From: Rhodobacteraceae bacterium Araon29
GTDB lineage: Bacteria; Pseudomonadota; Alphaproteobacteria; Rhodobacterales; Rhodobacteraceae
NCBI GenBank assembly: GCA_039640505.1
Contig: CP046865.1
Coordinates: 1,851,501 to 1,915,500, forward strand
Direction of reading: 5' to 3'
Length of the DNA stretch: 64,000 nt
In this document: positions 1,292 to 44,123 of the stretch, piece by piece
How the letters are laid out: each line of letters starts with the position of its first letter
How positions within the stretch are numbered: position 1 is the stretch's first letter
Translations under genes and position numbers: made by a program
Notes under the pieces: generated by a model
Told to the model about the DNA's origin: nothing
Seen by the model: only the letters and a program-made list of their open reading frames with translations
Database searches by the model: none

Positions 1292-2047
1292 AAGCTTCTG
1301 AATAAATACATCTTTTTGGTCAAAAGTGCAAAAAGAATTACTTTCCATTTTTGTCCATCCATTGTGATTTTCATCAAATGGTTCCGAAACAATCGCCCAA
1401 CTATCTTTTCGCTTATATCTGCGGTAATATATTGATGGCGCCCAACGGTCAGATGCATACCGCACAGCATATAGCTTTTTGCCATCTGAAAAGGTAATAG
1501 ATAGGCGAAGATGCGGCGTGATAGGCGAGAGCTGTTCAAAAAGTTTAACCGTTTTGGCAATGGCCTCTCTGGGATTATTGTCCAGCCCCTGCCCCAAAGC
1601 GTTTAGAAAAAAGGCCTCGCTATCGGTTGCGCCTTTGCGGTGTTTATAAAGAGCATCCGGAATCAACATATCTGCCTTTTTTCGCACCTGTTCAAACCCA
1701 CCGATTAGTCCATTGTGCATAAAGCTCCAGTTATCTACCACAAAGGGATGACAATTATTTCGACTAATTGCGGTTCCTGTGGACGCACGGACATGAGCAA
1801 GAAAGAGATGAGATTGAACTTGATTTGCAAAAGATCTGAGGTTCACATCTGACCAGGCTGGATGCGCGTCTTTATAAAGTCCCGGTTCGGCCCGTTTGCC
1901 GTACCAAGCAATGCCGAAACCATCACCGTTTAAGCTTGCCTTACCTTCATCAGCCGCCCTACTTTGCTCAATTAAAGAATGTTCTGGAGCGCTTAGGATG
2001 TCCGACAAATAGATTGGGGCGCCGATATAACCTGCCCAGCGACACAT
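1286..2047 (-). CDS. Class II glutamine amidotransferase domain protein
   Basis: 253 residues beginning MCRWAGYIG, so Cys2 becomes the N-terminal nucleophile after Met removal, as in Ntn-type class II glutamine amidotransferases (YafJ/EgtC-like group). Further family hallmarks are NGDGFGIAWY (about residues 41-50), the AHVRAST segment and the HNGLIGGF loop. The protein should release ammonia from glutamine or a gamma-glutamyl amide, but no synthetase domain is attached and the acceptor is unknown. It follows the small gene at 2048 with no gap, implying co-transcription. EgtC itself is unlikely because no ergothioneine genes are adjacent. Confidence 0.85.
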   Translation of the reverse strand: MCRWAGYIGAPIYLSDILSAPEHSLIEQSRAADEGKASLNGDGFGIAWYGKRAEPGLYKDAHPAWSDVNLRSFANQVQSHLFLAHVRASTGTAISRNNCHPFVVDNWSFMHNGLIGGFEQVRKKADMLIPDALYKHRKGATDSEAFFLNALGQGLDNNPREAIAKTVKLFEQLSPITPHLRLSITFSDGKKLYAVRYASDRWAPSIYYRRYKRKDSWAIVSEPFDENHNGWTKMESNSFCTFDQKDVFIQKLI

Positions 2048-34156: not shown

Positions 34157-37100
34157 CTATTCGGCCGCTTGAGTTAAACCTAAAGTGGTTTCGTCAATTG
34201 AGGCTAAAAGAGATTTTCGTTTCGCGGATGCTTTTTTGTAATTTTCCAATTTTACCGGACCAAAGCCCTTGATTGATAGCGGAAGCATTGCCAATTCAAT
34301 AATAGCGGGTTTTGTCACAGCAGTGTAACGCGTTAGGATACGCTTTAAGTCTTGCTCATACTGGCGAATTAAGCCGCGCTCGATCTTTCTTTCTTCTGAA
34401 TACCCGAAAATATCAAAGGGTGTTCCCCGCAATAGTTTCATTGAGGCCAGAATTTTAAAGCCTCGCAACATTCCGGGGCCAAATTTACGTTTTTGTGGGC
34501 GTCCGTCAGGCCCTGTCTTTGAAAGCAGTGGTGGGGCCAAATGAAAGTATATTTTTTTGACAGTTTCAAACTGATTTTTCACCTGCGCAGAGGTCATTTT
34601 ATGCAGTCTCGCCACCTCATATTCATCTTTGTAGGCAAGCAATTTGTGATAGCCCAATGCTACTGCTTCTTTTAGCTCAGAGTCCTCAATTTTACTGAGC
34701 ATTTTGATATATCTTCTCGCCAACCGTTTACTTTGATACTGACGCAGATGGTCTGCTCGAAACTTTATCTTTTCTTCTAAACTCTTTGGTAAATTGATCA
34801 CTTTTGGTTGGATAATTTCTTCTGCCTGTTCGGGATAAAGCGCGATCCATCTGCCAATTTCAAATGCTCTTTTGTTGGTCTCAACAGCTGCACCGTTTAA
34901 GGTGATGGCTTGTGTAATGGCGGCATGTGTGATCGGCAACAATCCACGTTGCCAGGTTGCGCCGAAAAGGATCATATTTGAAAAAACTGAATCTCCCAAC
35001 AACTCTCTGGCCAAAGCAGATGAGTCAATCATCAAAAGATCATCACGAAGCCGCGCCTCTAGCGCCAGTGTTAGCTGATCATGCGGTATTTTAAACTCAG
35101 CGTTCCGTGTAAAGTCACCTGTAACAATTTCTTGACAGTTTACCACTGCGCCGGTGCGCCCCTGCGCCGTCAAGCCAACAGTTTTCGAGCCTGCCGTGAC
35201 GACCAAATCACCGCCGATCAAGGCATCACATTCACCCAATGCAACACGAATAGCGCTAATAGAACCGGGATGCTCGGCCAAGCGGCAGTGGATGTGGACT
35301 GCCCCACCCTTTTGCGCCAAGCCAGCCATTTCCATCATGCCTGCCCCCTTACCATCTAGATGGGCAGCTTGTGCCAGAATAGCACCAATAGTGACCACAC
35401 CAGTGCCTCCAACACCTGTGATCACCACATTATGCGTTCCATCGATGGGCGCAATGGTGGGTACAGGCATATCCGGTAAGGAAATTGATTTTGCTTTTCG
35501 TTTTTTTGGCTGCGCGCCCTCAAGAGAAACAAAAGACGGGCAAAACCCGTTTACACAGCTAAAATCTTTATTACAGGCGGATTGATCAATTGCGCGCTTG
35601 CGGCCGAGTTCTGTTTCAACCGGAGAAATGGCAACGCAGTTTGATTGAATACCGCAATCGCCGCAACCTTCACAGATGTCTGTATTTATAAAAATGCGTT
35701 GATCAGGATCAGGGAACTCATTTTTTTTCCGCCGGCGACGCTTTTCAGCAGCGCAGGTCTGAACATATACAATCGCGGAAACGCCCATCACTTTCGAAAG
35801 CCTTTTCTGAACGTCAAGCATTTCTGCGCGTTCATGCCGAGAAATCGTTTTTGGAAAAGCGTTGAAGTCTAAATCTTCTTTTTCATCATAAACAAGGGCG
35901 ATTTCACTCACGCCCATTGCCATGAGTTCACGAGCTATTCTTGGCGCGCTCAAGCCCCCATCATTGCCCTGACCGCCGGTCATGGCCACAGCATCATTAA
36001 ACAGGATTTTATAGGTAATATTCGTATTGGCAGCGAGGGCTGCGCGGATCGCTTGAATGCCAGAGTGATTGTAAGTTCCGTCTCCTAAGTTCTGAAAAAC
36101 ATGGTTCCGTGTGGAAAAGGGCGCCTCACCGATCCAGTTTGCGCCTTCTCCGCCCATCTGGGTAAAGCCAAGCGTTTCACGTTCCATCCATTGCGCCATA
36201 AAATGGCACCCAATCCCAGCATAGGCACGAGACCCTTCAGGGACTTTTGTAGAGCTGTTATGCGGGCACCCTGCGCAGAAATATGGGAGGCGTGCTGCTA
36301 TATCAGAGGCGTTATCCGAGCGGCGAGCTTCAGACAATTGGGCCATCCCGCCGTCAACAAGAGTGCTATTACATCCTTCCTCAATTAATATTGAGCCTAA
36401 TTTTTCGGCAATCCAGATTGGATCGAGAGCACCCTCAATCGGAAACAGCTGTTCTCCTGACAGACCCTTTGCGCCGCCATAAACGCGCCGCCCTCTTAAA
36501 TCATCAAACAAAGCTTCCTTAATCTGAACTTCAATCAGTTTGCGCTTTTCCTCAACAACAACGATTAAGTCTAGCCCTTCTGCCCATTCTTGCATCGAAA
36601 GTTTATCCAGTGGCCAAGTTTGGGCTACTTTGTAGGTGGTTATGCCCAATCGTTCTGCTTCCGCATCGTCGACATTTAACAGTGACAGTGCATGCACCAA
36701 ATCAAGCCAGTTTTTGCCTGCCGCCACGAACCCTATTTTCGCACCAGCATGACCCTGAACTCGCTTATCAATTTTATTAGCTCGGGCAAAAGCTTCAGCG
36801 GCCTTCACCTTATACTGCAATAGCCGTTTTTCTTGCTCTGTCGGGGTGTCAACCAAACGGATGTTCAATCCACCCTCAGGCATTTGAACTTCGGGATATT
36901 TAAATACCTTCCGATGGGGATCGGCATCAACGACCGAGGTTACTTCAATCGTGTCCTTCATGGTTTTCAAACCAGCCCATAAGCCAGAAAACCTTGATAA
37001 CTCATAAGCATAGTGCCCATAGTCAAGAATTTCTTGAACCCCTGCTGGGCTCACAACTGGGATATGTGCGTCCACCATCGCCCAATCAGACTGGTGCAGC

Positions 37101-37564
37101 GTTGTGGAACTTTCCCCGGTGTGATCATCCCCCATCGCCATCACAACGCCGCCTTTTGCGCTGCTGCCGGCCATATTTGCATGACGCATCACGTCGCCGC
37201 TGCGATCTACCCCCGGGCCTTTTCCGTACCAAAGCCCAAAAACTCCATCAAAACGACCCTCTCCGCGGAGTTCGGCTTGCTGCGACCCCCAGATCGCGGT
37301 GGCAGCGAGGTCTTCATTCAATCCTTCTTGAAAATTGATGTCTGCGTTAGATAACACAGCATTTGCACGCTGCATTTGAAAGTCCACTGCCCCAAGCGGA
37401 GAGCCACGATAGCCTGTCACATAACCAGCTGTGTTCCATCCTGCTTTAAAATCGCGCGCTTTTTGTGCCAACATAAGCCGAACGAGGGCTTGGGTTCCGT
37501 TTAACAGGACAAACTGTTTCGATAGATCAAATTTATCTGCCAATGAGACGATTTGGATGCTCAC
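34157..37564 (-). CDS. Indolepyruvate:ferredoxin oxidoreductase, fused subunits
   Basis: 1135 residues from GTG 37564, chosen because TAGGAG lies 7 nt upstream. Fused architecture: N-terminal pyruvate-type domain, TPP-binding domain (NLGDGTYNHSGIQAIRAAL; DAVAMTGGQGNDGG), a ferredoxin-like cysteine region (CEGCGDCGIQSNC ... CVNGFCPSF) and a C-terminal gamma domain (ITGVGGTGVVTIGAILAQA). Such enzymes oxidatively decarboxylate aryl- or branched-chain 2-oxo acids with ferredoxin. The precise 2-oxo acid is not fixed by sequence. A LysR-type gene is divergent. Confidence 0.93.
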   Translation of the reverse strand: MSIQIVSLADKFDLSKQFVLLNGTQALVRLMLAQKARDFKAGWNTAGYVTGYRGSPLGAVDFQMQRANAVLSNADINFQEGLNEDLAATAIWGSQQAELRGEGRFDGVFGLWYGKGPGVDRSGDVMRHANMAGSSAKGGVVMAMGDDHTGESSTTLHQSDWAMVDAHIPVVSPAGVQEILDYGHYAYELSRFSGLWAGLKTMKDTIEVTSVVDADPHRKVFKYPEVQMPEGGLNIRLVDTPTEQEKRLLQYKVKAAEAFARANKIDKRVQGHAGAKIGFVAAGKNWLDLVHALSLLNVDDAEAERLGITTYKVAQTWPLDKLSMQEWAEGLDLIVVVEEKRKLIEVQIKEALFDDLRGRRVYGGAKGLSGEQLFPIEGALDPIWIAEKLGSILIEEGCNSTLVDGGMAQLSEARRSDNASDIAARLPYFCAGCPHNSSTKVPEGSRAYAGIGCHFMAQWMERETLGFTQMGGEGANWIGEAPFSTRNHVFQNLGDGTYNHSGIQAIRAALAANTNITYKILFNDAVAMTGGQGNDGGLSAPRIARELMAMGVSEIALVYDEKEDLDFNAFPKTISRHERAEMLDVQKRLSKVMGVSAIVYVQTCAAEKRRRRKKNEFPDPDQRIFINTDICEGCGDCGIQSNCVAISPVETELGRKRAIDQSACNKDFSCVNGFCPSFVSLEGAQPKKRKAKSISLPDMPVPTIAPIDGTHNVVITGVGGTGVVTIGAILAQAAHLDGKGAGMMEMAGLAQKGGAVHIHCRLAEHPGSISAIRVALGECDALIGGDLVVTAGSKTVGLTAQGRTGAVVNCQEIVTGDFTRNAEFKIPHDQLTLALEARLRDDLLMIDSSALARELLGDSVFSNMILFGATWQRGLLPITHAAITQAITLNGAAVETNKRAFEIGRWIALYPEQAEEIIQPKVINLPKSLEEKIKFRADHLRQYQSKRLARRYIKMLSKIEDSELKEAVALGYHKLLAYKDEYEVARLHKMTSAQVKNQFETVKKIYFHLAPPLLSKTGPDGRPQKRKFGPGMLRGFKILASMKLLRGTPFDIFGYSEERKIERGLIRQYEQDLKRILTRYTAVTKPAIIELAMLPLSIKGFGPVKLENYKKASAKRKSLLASIDETTLGLTQAAE

Positions 37565-37683
37565 AAATAAACTCCTACTACGTACACTTTTCTTGATAGT
37601 AAGAAGATAGGTCACAAAACCTGACATAGCTAGCTTTTTTTGATTTACGTCCTGTCATTTGGCATAACTTGTGACCAAGGAAA

Positions 37684-38637: not shown

Positions 38638-38658
38638 GCTATGCGCTCAGCGCATAGC
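38638..38658 (+). terminator. 9-bp hairpin just after the LysR-type gene
   Basis: GCTATGCGC (38638-38646), loop TCA, GCGCATAGC (38650-38658), 9 nt after the stop codon. No T-run follows, so it may block 3' exonucleases or assist termination rather than being a classical terminator. Confidence 0.4.
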
Positions 38659-38687
38659 GGATTTGCTTAGTGAAGGTTAATTTCCTC

Positions 38688-38716
38688 TTGAATGTGGGTT
38701 AAGCCAACCTTACATC
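38688..38716 (+). promoter_or_regulatory. Candidate promoter of the small RNA at 38722
   Basis: TTGAAT at 38688-38693, a 17-nt spacer, and TACATC at 38711-38716. Spacing is ideal, the -10 matches only half the consensus. It would start transcription at about 38722-38724, immediately before the first hairpin. Confidence 0.4.
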
Positions 38717-38721
38717 GTTGA

Positions 38722-38799
38722 ATATACAAGGACGCGAAGTTTTCCGTTCTTGTACCTCCCTGTTGGACTAAGGCCGAGCTTTGCTCGGCCCTTTTTTTC
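38722..38799 (+). ncRNA. Small-RNA candidate with CCTCCC motif and strong terminator
   Basis: A region of about 78 nt with no reading frame but dense structure. A 10-bp stem (38725-38734 with 38745-38754, one G-U, 10-nt loop) is followed by single-stranded CCTCCC (38755-38760), a short linker, and a perfect 8-bp GGCCGAGC/GCTCGGCC terminator (772-790 of the 38-kb block) with seven Ts. A CCTCC stretch is complementary to Shine-Dalgarno sequences, as in the CcsR-type small RNAs of Rhodobacter. The nearest genes are LysR (upstream) and a convergent racemase-like gene. No RNA family match was tested. Confidence 0.6.
38772..38798 (+). terminator. Rho-independent terminator
   Basis: GGCCGAGC (38772-38779), loop TTT, GCTCGGCC (38783-38790), then C and seven Ts (38792-38798). 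Among the strongest terminators in the window; it forms the 3' end of the small-RNA candidate. Confidence 0.92.
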
Positions 38800-38845: not shown

Positions 38846-39592
38846 CTATTTCATAAGGCGCCCGACGCCCGTTAAGCTCGGTTGAAGACTGGACAAAGTT
38901 CTCATGTGCCACGCCAACACTTGGTTTGATGATAAAACTGGCACCCGGCATAATTCTTCAATTTCCTCAATTACATCAATTGTTTGCAGATTTGTACAAG
39001 ATAGAAATATTCCTTCTACGGGCCCTTGATTACATAATGTCCTGCAGGCATCGATGATCGACCCGCCTGAAATCCTTGCTACACGTGTTTCAACGGCTTC
39101 ATCGAACGAGCCAAATACCAAAGAGTTTACGCCATTCTTTTTAAGTGAATTGCGTAGTGTGAGCGATACCTCAGCAATATAGGGTGACAAAAACCCTAAC
39201 TGAGAAATTTTCAACTTTTTGCATGCCACGATTAAGGCTGTTAGTGGATCAGTGACCGCTAAGGTATTGCACCCAGACGAAATCAATTCGGTTACTTTTT
39301 CTGCTCCTATGACAGAAGTGCCAGATGTGCATCCGTACCCCACAACGCCAAAGTCCACAGGCGGCGGTAAAAGTCGGGCCGCTTTGGGCAGTTCGGCCTC
39401 CATCATGGCGAGTGTATCGGCGCTCACTTCAGGGGCGCTTGCAACCCGAGAAACGTAAAGAGCAACATCATTTTCCGGAAAATATCGCCGCATATCGCTT
39501 TCAATGGTTTCATCTGATTGCAGCGTTACAAGACCGATATTTGCACGGCTTCCAACAGGTTTATCCAAGCTGTATTTAAAAATATTTTGCAT
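38846..39592 (-). CDS. Aspartate/glutamate racemase superfamily protein (maleate isomerase-like)
   Basis: 248 residues with the two-cysteine arrangement of the Asp/Glu racemase, maleate isomerase and arylmalonate decarboxylase superfamily: GYGCTSGTSVIG at about residue 87 and FLSCTNLQTIDVIEE at about residue 200. EutA, encoded in ectoine-use operons, belongs to the same group. It follows the M24-family gene by 2 nt, so it is the third gene of an operon starting at 41762. Racemase, isomerase or decarboxylase activity on a small amino- or dicarboxylic acid is expected; the substrate is unknown. Confidence 0.82.
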   Translation of the reverse strand: MQNIFKYSLDKPVGSRANIGLVTLQSDETIESDMRRYFPENDVALYVSRVASAPEVSADTLAMMEAELPKAARLLPPPVDFGVVGYGCTSGTSVIGAEKVTELISSGCNTLAVTDPLTALIVACKKLKISQLGFLSPYIAEVSLTLRNSLKKNGVNSLVFGSFDEAVETRVARISGGSIIDACRTLCNQGPVEGIFLSCTNLQTIDVIEEIEELCRVPVLSSNQVLAWHMRTLSSLQPSLTGVGRLMK

Positions 39593-39594
39593 GG

Positions 39595-40743
39595 CTAAAT
39601 TTCCATAATGCTATCTGGGGCCTGCGGCGAAATTTGTTCAACACCAGCTTTGCGAATAACAAAGTTATCTTCATGCACAAGCATACCGCCATTTGGGATA
39701 GCGACAGAGGGTTCTAAAGTTATGACCATTCCCTCTTTTAACACCGTGTGGTCATTGGGGATAAATGATGGCCATTCCGTAAGCTGCATACCCAAACCAT
39801 GTCCTAAACGGCCAACGTCACCTCCGCCTTTTCCACCCGTCAAGACATTGTCCATCGCAAGAAAAACATCTGCAGCAGTATTGCCCACCTTTGCAGCTAT
39901 TTTACCGGCTTCAGTTGCTTCAATGAGACGGGTGTATCCTACCGATATCCGACTATCTGGTTTGCCGATGGAAAAGTTTCGATCAAAGTCGCAAAAATAG
40001 CCATCAGACATTAACCCCGTATCTAGCATTAAAATATCCCCCTCGCATAAAGGGTGATCATTTGCAGGCGAAATTACGTCACTATAGCCAAGAGGTCCGG
40101 CTCCTCCAGCCAAATACGGAACCCAGTCGGCGCCTTCTTCCAAACATAATTTTTGAAACCCGCGAAACACAGATTCTAAAGACGCGCCTTGGCTTGCCAC
40201 TTCTGAAACACGTGAAAACGCCGCGTTAGCAATATCACAAGCACGGGAGATTTTCAAAATTTCAGCTTCTGATTTAATCAACCTGAGCTTTCGGATAATG
40301 CCAGCGTCGCCAGCAAAAACAAAGTTTGGCAGTCGCTTTTTTAGATGCCCAAAATCTTGCAAAGGCATACGAAGATGACTTTCGTGACCAGAGGGAATCC
40401 CAAGTTTTGCAGATTTGGGTAAAACCTCTGACAGTGTTTCCGCTAGCAAACTTATGCCATCATCAATAGGATTAGGTGCTGTCCACGTGCGAATATCTCT
40501 GACCCAAGTTTTGGCCATTAAATCGGCGCCAATAGAGGGAATAACCGCAATAGGGTCACCAGATTGCGGCAGTATCAAAAACCATGGCCGCGTGGGGCTT
40601 TCCCAAAAACGGGTTAAAAAGCCAGTGAAGTAGCGGACCTCGGGTTCGGTGGTTAACAGCAGGGCGTCAATGCCTTCATACACCATTTCAATCTGTGCAT
40701 TTTGCGCTCTAGTTTTGAATTCAGCAGGGTGAAATCCACGCAT
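39595..40743 (-). CDS. M24-family (Xaa-Pro peptidase-like) hydrolase
   Basis: 382 residues: an N-terminal creatinase-like domain (about 1-145) and a C-terminal pita-bread catalytic domain. The metal ligands of M24 enzymes are visible in order: Asp in MLDTGLM, Asp in FCDFDRNF, His in GHGLGMQL, Glu in TLEPSVA and Glu in VHEDNFVI. It could be a Xaa-Pro dipeptidase or an amide hydrolase such as creatinase or ectoine hydrolase. Its start overlaps the stop of the ammonia-lyase-like gene (TAATG), indicating a coupled operon. Confidence 0.85.
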   Translation of the reverse strand: MRGFHPAEFKTRAQNAQIEMVYEGIDALLLTTEPEVRYFTGFLTRFWESPTRPWFLILPQSGDPIAVIPSIGADLMAKTWVRDIRTWTAPNPIDDGISLLAETLSEVLPKSAKLGIPSGHESHLRMPLQDFGHLKKRLPNFVFAGDAGIIRKLRLIKSEAEILKISRACDIANAAFSRVSEVASQGASLESVFRGFQKLCLEEGADWVPYLAGGAGPLGYSDVISPANDHPLCEGDILMLDTGLMSDGYFCDFDRNFSIGKPDSRISVGYTRLIEATEAGKIAAKVGNTAADVFLAMDNVLTGGKGGGDVGRLGHGLGMQLTEWPSFIPNDHTVLKEGMVITLEPSVAIPNGGMLVHEDNFVIRKAGVEQISPQAPDSIMEI

Positions 40744-41762
40744 TATGAATCGCTTTCCTCACTTACAATACACAGCACTCGTGAATTTTGATTGATCTCG
40801 GGAAAACCATTTAAGAGCGCTACCAATCCTGCGCCTCCAGAGGGTGTTGTCTCTAGTCCTTTAATTGACAAAAGTGGCATCGCTTCTTCGGCAGCTTGAT
40901 CAGAAATCAAGGCGAACATATCGGCATCTCGGGCGAGGCCTTTCAAAGCAATTAAAGAGGGCTCTTTACAGTCCAAGCGCCCCATATTTGAAACAGGTCC
41001 CGGTGTGTTTATGGCTTTACCGGCAAGAATACTTTGGAAGATTGCTGGTGCGATTTCTGGTTCGACAACTATAATTTCCGGTTCATTGCCCCAAGCATGG
41101 CGGAAATATGCCGCTGCCGCAGCAGCAAGCCCTCCTACCCCGGCTTGCAAAAATATATGAGTCGGAGTGTGCGGTACTTGCGCCACAGCTTCGGCTGCCA
41201 TGACCAAATAGCCTTCCATCAAACGGTGTGGTATATCTAGATAGCCATCCCAAGAACTATCAGACAGCAATATCCAACCTTGTTCTGACGCTGCCTTTTG
41301 CGCCGCCTCCATGCTGGCCTCGTAATTGTCCCCTGCGCGCACCACCTCGGCTTTATGGGCGCGAAGCTTTTTGGCAAAACTTTCGGGAACCGTGTTAGAC
41401 AAGTAGATCACCGCTTTGGCACCAAACACTTGCGCACCTGCGGCAACGGATAATCCATGATTGCCGGCACTGGCAGTTACATAGGTCACATTAGACACAT
41501 CAGCATTCTGAGCTGCATGCGCAATAACATAGGCCGCACCCAAAGCCTTAAAGCTGCCCAACCCCATGCGCGTGCGCTCGTCTTTGACAAAAACGTGTCC
41601 CGCACTGCCGAACCCTTCGAGACAGTGTAGTGGTGTAGTGCCGGCGTCAGGGCACCGCGTAAGTAGATTACGCGGTTCAGACACGTTTACACTGGGGAAT
41701 GGGACGTCGGTTAACCCTTTGGGTTCGTCGGACAAATGTCTGGAATGTTTGTGTATTTTCAT
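40743..41762 (-). CDS. Diaminopropionate ammonia-lyase-like PLP enzyme
   Basis: 339 residues, fold-type II PLP enzyme. The Schiff-base lysine is in GLGSFKALGAAYVIA; ASAGNHGLSVAAGAQ binds substrate, and THIFLQAGVGGLAAA is the phosphate loop region. These match diaminopropionate ammonia-lyase (YgeX) better than threonine dehydratase. ATG 41762 is preferred (AGAGGG just upstream); a GTG at 41831 lacks a ribosome-binding site. First gene of a three-gene operon; divergent from purL. Substrate should be a 2,3-diamino or beta-substituted amino acid. Confidence 0.82.
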   Translation of the reverse strand: MKIHKHSRHLSDEPKGLTDVPFPSVNVSEPRNLLTRCPDAGTTPLHCLEGFGSAGHVFVKDERTRMGLGSFKALGAAYVIAHAAQNADVSNVTYVTASAGNHGLSVAAGAQVFGAKAVIYLSNTVPESFAKKLRAHKAEVVRAGDNYEASMEAAQKAASEQGWILLSDSSWDGYLDIPHRLMEGYLVMAAEAVAQVPHTPTHIFLQAGVGGLAAAAAAYFRHAWGNEPEIIVVEPEIAPAIFQSILAGKAINTPGPVSNMGRLDCKEPSLIALKGLARDADMFALISDQAAEEAMPLLSIKGLETTPSGGAGLVALLNGFPEINQNSRVLCIVSEESDS

Positions 41763-41963
41763 GGGCCCTCTAGATTTCGCTTTCTCAAGTGGTGACAGAG
41801 AAACGTCTAATTGCAAGCTTATTGACGACACTTTAGGTTCAATTGCTCCGTTTACGGAAGCTTTAGCAATAAATATTTTCTTCTGAAATTTCCCATTAGC
41901 GCAACTTGCTCTTGTCCAGCCCTTGGCTTAAGACAGCCGCAAATAGATGCTAGGGGCTTGAGC

Positions 41964-44123
41964 ATGACCGAACCAGAGATTTCAGAAGACTTGATTGCGG
42001 CACATGGGCTTAAACCTGATGAATACGCAAAAATTCTAGAAATCATTGGACGGACACCAACCTTCACCGAGCTCGGTATTTTTTCGGCAATGTGGAATGA
42101 GCATTGTTCCTACAAATCTTCTAAAAAATGGCTTCGAACTTTACCCACTAGCGGGCCACAAGTGATTTGTGGACCAGGTGAAAATGCAGGCGTGGTTGAT
42201 ATTGGTGATGGGCAAGCTGTGGTCTTTAAAATGGAAAGCCACAATCATCCTTCATATATCGAACCCTATCAGGGCGCTGCCACAGGGGTTGGCGGCATCT
42301 TGCGCGATGTGTTCACCATGGGAGCGCGCCCAATAGCTGCGATGAACTCATTAAGCTTTGGCGCCCCAGATCATCCAAAAACCAAACAATTGGTGCATGG
42401 GGTGGTTGAAGGCGTGGGTGGTTATGGAAATTGCTTTGGCGTGCCAACTGTTGGTGGTGAGGTTAGATTTGATCCCGCCTATAATGGCAATTGTCTGGTC
42501 AACGCCTTTGCCGCTGGCCTCGCAGATGCGGATAGGATTTTTTATTCGGCGGCTTCCGGGGTTGGAATGCCGGTGGTTTACTTGGGCGCCAAAACTGGAC
42601 GAGACGGCGTTGGCGGTGCAACCATGGCGTCGGCTGAATTTGATGATAGTATCGAAGAAAAGAGACCAACTGTGCAAGTTGGTGATCCATTTACTGAAAA
42701 ACGGCTTATGGAAGCCTGTCTTGAGTTGATGCAAACCGGCGCAGTGATTTCAATACAAGATATGGGCGCAGCGGGTCTAACCTGCTCTGCCGTAGAAATG
42801 GGCGACAAAGGTAATCTTGGCATTCACCTTGATCTGGAAAAAGTTCCTGTTCGCGAACCCAATATGACAGCTTATGAAATGATGCTTTCTGAGTCGCAGG
42901 AACGCATGCTCATGGTTCTAAGCCCAGATAAAGAAACCGAGGCAAGGCGCGTTTTTGAAAAGTGGGATTTGGATTTTGCAATCGTTGGAAAAACTATCGC
43001 AGAAGATCGCTTTCTAATTTATCTTGATGGAGCTTTAAAGGCCGACCTTCCGCTAAAAGCTTTATCCGGCAATGCCCCTGAATATGATCGTGAGTGGCAA
43101 GAGCCATTGCCTGCACCCCCATTACAAGGGCTCCCGGATATTGACCCTATAGAGGGTTTAAAGGCGCTTTTGGCTGACCCGAATTATGCGAGTAAGAAAT
43201 GGGTTTATGAACAATATGACAGCCAAGTCATGGCAGATACGATAAATTGCCCTGGATATGGCGCTGGCATCGTTCGGGTGCATGGTACAAAAAAATCATT
43301 GGCGTTCACCAGTGATGTAACACCGCGTTACGTGCAGGCAAATCCCTATGAGGGCGGCAAACAGGCGGTTGCAGAGGCCTATAGAAATCTAAGCGCGGTT
43401 GGTGCAACTCCGCTTGCGAGTACGGACAACTTAAATTTCGGAAATCCCGAAAAGCCGGAAATAATGGGCCAATTTGTAACCGCGCTAAAAGGTATTGGAG
43501 AGGCGGTTTCGGCTTTGGATATGCCGATCGTTTCTGGAAATGTCAGCCTTTACAATGAAACAGATGGTGCCGCGATCCTACCAACGCCAACTATAGGGGC
43601 CGTCGGACTTATCGCAGAAAACGACGAGCCTATTATTGGCAAAGCCCGTGAAGGTCATGTTTTACTTCTTTTGGGGGAAAGTGACGGGCATTTGGGGCAA
43701 TCTGCTTTATTGCATTCCGCCTGCGGGCGCACCGATGGTGATGCGCCTTTAGTGGATTTAGAAGCTGAAAAGAAAAATGGTGAGTTTATCCGGTCAAACC
43801 GGGCGCTTATTGAGGCGTGCACTGATATATCTGACGGTGGACTAGCACTTGCTGCTTTTGAAATGGCTGCCGCTGCTGACGTTGGGGTTAAGTTGGATAC
43901 TTCCGATATCGCAGCATTATTTGGCGAAGACCAAGCACGATATCTGGTGGTTTGCGATTTTGATCAAGCCGAAGCGCTTATGAGTGCGGCGAGCGAAGCG
44001 CAAGTCACTTTACAGTTTGTTGGTAAATTTGGGGGCAGCGCCATTAAATTTGGGACGCTCTCGTCAGAGCTTGCCGAGCTTTGCGGCATTTACCGAAATG
44101 CCTTTGCTGAGCAATTTTCTTGA
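41964..44123 (+). CDS. purL: Phosphoribosylformylglycinamidine synthase, small PurL
   Basis: 719 residues, the subunit that works with PurS and PurQ in purine synthesis. [25 protein letters not shown]-type ATP/FGAR segments are present in part as MESHNHPS and GAATGVGG, with [12 protein letters not shown] near the N-terminus and GNVSLYNET in the second half. The ATG at 41964 is chosen (AGGGGC 7 nt upstream) over an in-frame TTG two codons earlier. bolA and grxD follow in the same direction. Confidence 0.97.

Follow-up and report, generated by a model that had tools for sequence, protein, structure and literature searches.

A predicted SorY orthologue beside an LsrB/VtlR-type LysR gene in Rhodobacteraceae bacterium Araon29

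The window analysed here is a stretch of 64,000 nucleotides from contig CP046865.1 of Rhodobacteraceae bacterium Araon29. Judged from its sequence and that of its relatives, it holds a real and conserved small RNA (sRNA) gene, ordinary in kind, whose position and surroundings are given in Table 1. The gene follows a LysR regulator gene on the same strand at a distance of 0.1 kb. The only solved structure matched by this regulator at E<1e-30 is 9HH1 (E=1e-73), that of A. tumefaciens LsrB (PMC11975290), and the protein is assigned by this match to the LsrB/VtlR type.

Table 1. Features around the sRNA gene, in positions of the window.
Feature	Position	Strand	Basis
Indolepyruvate ferredoxin oxidoreductase (IOR), conserved outer neighbour	34157..37627	-	Found in 37/54 loci
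LsrB/VtlR-type LysR regulator, 302 aa	37720..38628	+	Pfam HTH_1 and LysR_substrate; 9HH1 match
9-bp inverted repeat GCTATGCGCTCAGCGCATAGC, overlapping the box	38638..38658	.	Scanner: terminator-like, but without T-run
Upstream box ATGC-N7-GCATAGCGG-N2-TTGC, probable LysR operator	38641..38666	+	Motif count; constant -35 spacing
Conserved promoter CTTGAA (38687-38692), 16 nt, CTTACAT (38709-38715)	38687..38715	+	Alignment of relatives
SorY-type small RNA	38724..38798	+	Rfam SorY/SorX matches; fold z; orthologous loci in Rhodobacteraceae
5' hairpin, 10 bp and 3 inner pairs	38725..38754	+	Fold; stem kept in 54/54 relatives; arm-swap covariation
Single-stranded core ACCTCCCTGTTGGACT, putative anti-Shine-Dalgarno seed	38754..38769	+	16/16 columns invariant, 54 loci
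Intrinsic terminator, 8-bp stem, TTT loop, seven T	38772..38798	+	Near-invariant stem, 54 loci
EutA-like, PepQ-like and threonine-synthase-like genes between sRNA and purL	38846-41831	-	Threonine-synthase-like by eye
purL, conserved downstream neighbour	41958..44123	+	32/54 loci

The RNA would start at about 38722-38728 and end in the T-run at 38798. The arms of its 5' hairpin, TACAAGGACG (38725-38734) and CGTTCTTGTA (38745-38754), form nine Watson-Crick pairs and one G-U pair, and three further pairs past a bulge lengthen the hairpin in the computed fold. CCTCCC occupies 38755-38760. The terminator stem GGCCGAGC/TTT/GCTCGGCC (38772-38790), with eight perfect pairs of which seven are G-C, is followed by a C and by seven T at 38792-38798. 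An earlier note on this DNA had described a 10-bp hairpin, CCTCCC and a terminator of eight perfect pairs followed by seven Ts, all devoid of a reading frame; positions and pairing were borne out, and no convincing reading frame was found among the same-strand ORFs of at least 20 aa, the sole one starting at a TTG within the hairpin and extending beyond the terminator. The minimum free energy of 38724-38798 is -30.2 kcal/mol, compared with -15.98 +/- 2.66 for dinucleotide shuffles (z=-5.35), and 0/200 shuffles folded as well as this 75-nt piece.

The conservation of the element was assessed on 54 distinct loci of relatives selected by containing CCTCCCTGTTGGACT; very few fetched loci were dropped by this filter or by the removal of duplicates. 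All 16 columns of the core are invariant, which is partly an effect of selection because the loci were chosen for CCTCCCTGTTGGACT. The terminator stem is near-invariant and includes one compensated pair. The sequence and length of the 5' hairpin vary freely, and the 5' stem was not recovered by RNAalifold on a MAFFT alignment of the loci because hairpin lengths differ. The stem was tested instead by folding each sequence and by swapping arms. At least eight pairs directly precede the core in all 54 loci, against 25.7 loci expected from shuffles. Own-arm pairing amounts to 7.54 of 9, compared with 6.55 +/- 0.08 when right arms (49 distinct) were exchanged among loci. The better pairing of own arms indicates that the 5' stem covaries. 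Stem covariation had been proposed as a check on the earlier reading, which a lack of conservation or compensation would have helped to refute; the relatives display both an invariant core and a covarying stem.

The spaced promoter-like pair noticed previously, TTGAAT (38688-38693) and TTACAT (38710-38715) separated by 16 nt, is present and its element and spacing recur in relatives; it was not listed by the consensus promoter scanner. Loci anchored on the -35 share CTTGA, 16 nt and a CCTAAAT-like element, the 16-nt spacing being only partly independent because anchoring favoured it. The alphaproteobacterial consensus is CTTGAC-N17-CTATAT for RpoD and CTTGAA-N16-CCTATAT for RpoH1 (PMC8844928). 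The promoter resembles both, so that its sequence does not tell the sigma factor. Farther upstream, the loci share the consensus box ATGC-N7-GCATAGCGG-N2-ATGC. Of the 54 loci, 37 carry the motif GCATN3KGN3T ahead of the -35, where shuffles give 0.3; in most loci it stands about 35-36 nt from the TTG of the -35, though hairpin length and the distance to the core vary. In the window, the motif copy GCATAGCGGATTT (GCAT-N3-GG-N3-T, 38652-38664) lies inside and just past the inverted repeat, which overlaps the conserved dyad of the box. The published LsrB/VtlR box is GCAT-N3-TG-N3-T (PMC8844928, PMC7486931), with TG where the window has GG; the GG variant dominates among the loci, while the exact published form was found in 3/54 and also in L088 and L092 of other families. 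The upstream box is a probable LysR operator.

At Rfam gathering scores, the whole window yielded a tRNA alone and no family call for the sRNA. The covariance search suggested in the earlier note, run with an E-value threshold, gave a match of the SorY model RF02651 to 38728-38798 (E=2.7e-9, 49.5 bits), below the curated gathering cut-off of 111. The SorX model RF02784 matched the sRNA at E=4.7e-8, under its cut-off, suhB RF00519 (MmgR / SisA-D, alpha-r8) matched it weakly (19.4 bits vs a cut-off of 41) and RF02345 (ar15 / AbcR) did not match the window at E<=10. At E<=0.001, SorY matches were found in 372 of 397 family genomes (94%), the matching genomes being nearly all from different genera. 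Only one of the 397, G051, exceeds the RF02651 cut-off (115 bits), which indicates that the threshold marks near-identity to the founding sequence. The window sRNA, at less than 111 bits, is not called a member of RF02651 as thresholded, and Rfam-based annotation would miss it because the cut-off excludes nearly every genus.

The gene order in G051 is IOR (-), LysR (+), SorY and purL (+), and its LysR is 76% identical to that of the window. This order recurs in the window, with three opposite-strand genes inserted between the sRNA and purL. LysR is upstream of the sRNA in 52/54 loci, one of the other two being at a contig end; purL is close downstream on the same strand in 32/54, within the short flanks, and IOR was seen in 37/54 despite flanks of 1.5 kb. 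The EutA-like gene occurs in just two of the 54 orthologous loci, the window included. From the gene order shared with G051 and the LysR linkage in relatives, the window sRNA is identified, on sequence grounds, as the orthologue of R. sphaeroides SorY, an RNA that reportedly confers singlet-oxygen resistance in that organism. Both share the locus (IOR / LysR / sRNA / purL), the invariant CCUCCCUGUUGGACU core, the 5' hairpin, the terminator and the promoter layout, and in both the ACCUCCCUGUUGGACU core sits between hairpin and terminator. They differ in that the window hairpin is shorter and of other sequence, its score is below the Rfam cut-off and its purL is 3 kb away, displaced by the three inserted genes. 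SorY is reported to be an Hfq-binding RNA under RpoHI/RpoHII control that represses a malate transporter (PMC8307010, PMC7866481). The earlier proposal of a trans-acting anti-Shine-Dalgarno sRNA is thereby well supported by conservation, by covariation and by the predicted orthology to this Hfq-binding RNA. The element follows LysR and ends in an intrinsic terminator, as would also be expected if it were merely the LysR terminator with a chance hairpin and no trans-acting RNA. This reading is very improbable given the unpaired 16-nt core invariant in 54 loci, the covarying second stem, the conserved promoter and box, and an orthologue that is a characterised sRNA.

Three further copies of the core are carried by the genome. 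In one (L041 1450-1500; G000:C1:3346815, - strand), CCTCCCTGTTGAACT and a terminator immediately follow the 3' end of a gene for an OmpR-type response regulator, and this copy is hence regarded as the SorX counterpart. The other two, L031 (G000:C1:1067853, +) and L033 (G000:C1:3147453, -), have the exact CCTCCCTGTTGGACT core with other terminators, and a shared ATCCAAAATCAAYATCTG stretch precedes both; L033 is near an agmatine-deiminase-like gene (assigned by eye). SorX and the window sRNA share the ACCUCCCUGUUGGAC core and the terminator type, but SorX lies in the 3' UTR of an OmpR-type gene, whereas the window sRNA has LysR upstream and the OmpR-linked copy is elsewhere in the genome. SorX derives from the ompR-1 3' UTR (PMC8625941). 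By analogy with this relative, and with a location 0.1 kb past LysR on the same strand, the window RNA could be mainly a processed 3' UTR of the LysR mRNA. Its promoter is conserved at a constant spacing to the upstream box, however, and SorY itself is directly transcribed without processing (PMC8307010); processing from LysR is accordingly an unlikely main origin. The earlier note had compared the RNA with the CcsR type. The four CcsR copies, CcsR1-4, arise by processing of the ccaF1 transcript (PMC8307010, PMC8625941), and share with the window sRNA their occurrence in Rhodobacteraceae and, by that note's statement, a CCUCC-type seed. The comparison proved wrong: tandem copies downstream of ccaF1 are not seen here, and copy number and neighbours exclude a CcsR-type identity for a single, LysR-linked gene with its own conserved promoter. 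The note had mentioned neither the adjacent LysR gene nor the conserved upstream box nor the SorY homology.

AbcR genes adjoin the LsrB/VtlR gene (PMC8844928), as the window sRNA adjoins a LysR of this type. In S. meliloti, abcR1 and abcR2 adjoin lsrB; LsrB activates abcR1 and RpoH1 drives abcR2 (PMC8844928). Since 9HH1 is LsrB and abcR genes lie beside lsrB, LysR orthologues outside the family were inspected. The sample comprised 40 LysR loci (two sets of 20), 45-54% identical and nearly all from different GTDB families. The CCTCCCTGT element and the following stem were found downstream of LysR in 14/20 loci of the first set and 14/20 of the second (28/40 overall), typically as CGTCTCCCAGACGTGAAGCCTCCCTGTTnnACT then a terminator; in L082, the exact CCTCCCTGT is a second, more distal copy, and degenerate forms occur in a few of the remaining loci (L091, L406, L408). 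The R1 covariance model, built from the 54 SorY loci, matches most of the first set exactly there (E 1e-5 to 1e-3). The LysR-linked RNAs of other families (L079-L098) score up to 44.1 vs the SorX cut-off of 46.6. Copies follow LysR in tandem in L083 (three) and L082 (two or more), which recalls the tandem abcR1/abcR2. A 24-nt motif scan of GTDB genomes returned at least 119 stretches; the named organisms among the listed matches are mostly Rhodospirillales-type (Azospirillum, Roseomonas, Reyranella, Magnetovibrio), and LysR lies within 600 nt upstream in at least 81 of the at least 119 listed, many of the others being near contig or locus ends. From the sampled and scanned loci, we conclude that the LysR/sRNA linkage runs across Alphaproteobacteria.

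The ar15/AbcR model, applied to 190 genomes of the class, gave three weak matches, all under the cut-off (E 0.002-0.01). L106, the strongest, corresponds to an MmgR gene and not to AbcR. This MmgR (alpha-r8) gene, at 1492-1565 (-), receives 24 bits from R1 and hints that sRNAs with CCUCCCU form a broader set. MmgR / SisA-D share with the window sRNA a CCUCCCU seed, then ACUU, and a terminator; in contrast, the MmgR gene in L106 is at another locus and the window score is below the suhB cut-off. The loci fetched included no Rhizobiaceae-like LsrB locus, the highest identity to 9HH1 being 54%. AbcR1/AbcR2 (alpha-r15, RF02345, Rhizobiales) and the window sRNA have in common an LsrB/VtlR-type LysR neighbour, an anti-Shine-Dalgarno seed and transporter receptors as actual or candidate targets; the GCAT-type box upstream is similar, with GG in place of TG in the window. 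AbcR has a looped and an unpaired seed whereas the window sRNA has one unpaired seed; its hairpin loop is without CUCCC and the two anti-Shine-Dalgarno motifs of AbcR are thus not found. It could be argued that the sRNA is real but that SorY-type and AbcR-type RNAs have no common origin and converged on CCUCCC and a terminator, the LysR linkage elsewhere belonging to a different RNA. Convergence would fit the shortness of the homologous stretch, the 24 bits that an MmgR gene at another place in a genome receives from R1, and the lack of an ar15 match to the window. This reading is nevertheless doubtful in view of the same position directly after an orthologous LysR in 28 of the 40 outside-family loci, the shared CCTCCCTGTTnnACT spacing to the terminator and the R1 matches there. 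We infer that, in Rhodobacteraceae, SorY corresponds to the LsrB-linked AbcR RNAs, both having likely descended from one RNA. Synteny of the abcR1 region throughout Alphaproteobacteria has been described (PMC8844928); a statement that SorY is part of this synteny was not found in the open-access literature searched, nor was a paper naming SorY and AbcR1 together.

The seed CUCCCUG is complementary to CAGGGAG. Of the 13 usable genes that start with CAGGGAG-N3-9-ATG in the window genome, Pfam identifies 10 as transport receptors (Bmp, OpuAC, SBP_bac_1/8/5, Peripla_BP_6, TctC, NMT1_3), against 2/21 for the control AAGGGAG (Fisher p=1e-4). The enrichment was not replicated in the SorY-bearing G051 (1/20 vs 4/26 exported), and over 1046 start regions whole-seed duplex energies were no better for the real seed than for flank-shuffled seeds. 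Genes with ACAGGGAG start sites, counted without matched control, are exported in 8/15 cases in three other relatives and in 0/7 in G051. The exact 10-nt complement CAACAGGGAG has five matches: the four sRNA genes themselves and one other. Transporter receptors are therefore a suggestive target class in the window genome only. These candidates fit the targets of SorY (malate transporter), AbcR and SorX, which represses potA (PMC9438474). As supposed in the earlier note, the sRNA may block the ribosome-binding sites of several genes.

The following model is proposed. An RNA of about 75 nt would be transcribed from its own promoter, carrying a protective hairpin at the 5' end, ACCUCCCUGUUGGACU as its exposed seed and a terminator with a U tail. 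Its CUCCCUG would pair with the Shine-Dalgarno of selected mRNAs, most likely those of ABC, TRAP and tripartite transporter receptors in the main, and the pairing would block translation and so lower the uptake of nutrients during oxidative and other stress. Transcription would probably be set by the adjacent LsrB/VtlR-type LysR at the ATGC-N7-GCATAGCGG box, and possibly be driven by RpoH sigma factors as well. To the whole of this explanation, namely a SorY orthologue with its own promoter, seed pairing on transporter-receptor mRNAs and LysR control, we assign a probability of about 0.8; within it, the SorY-like function in Araon29, the LysR control and the target class are predictions. The chances appear even for a broader proposal, in which SorY and the AbcR-like RNAs would be one ancient, vertically inherited module where a redox-responsive LsrB-type regulator drives a downstream anti-Shine-Dalgarno sRNA that throttles transporter receptors class-wide, and the LysR-linked Rhodospirillales-type members (CGTCTCCCAGACGTGAAGCCTCCCTGTT) would be an sRNA family unrecognised at Rfam cut-offs. 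No report of a SorY response to the neighbouring LysR in Rhodobacter was found in the open literature searched; if there is one module, SorY should respond to this regulator. Overall, the data suggest a single module behind two systems that have been studied apart, SorY in photo-oxidative stress and AbcR/LsrB in rhizobia and related bacteria; the locus is of interest for this likely union with the LsrB-AbcR module and for the predicted control of SorY by LysR.
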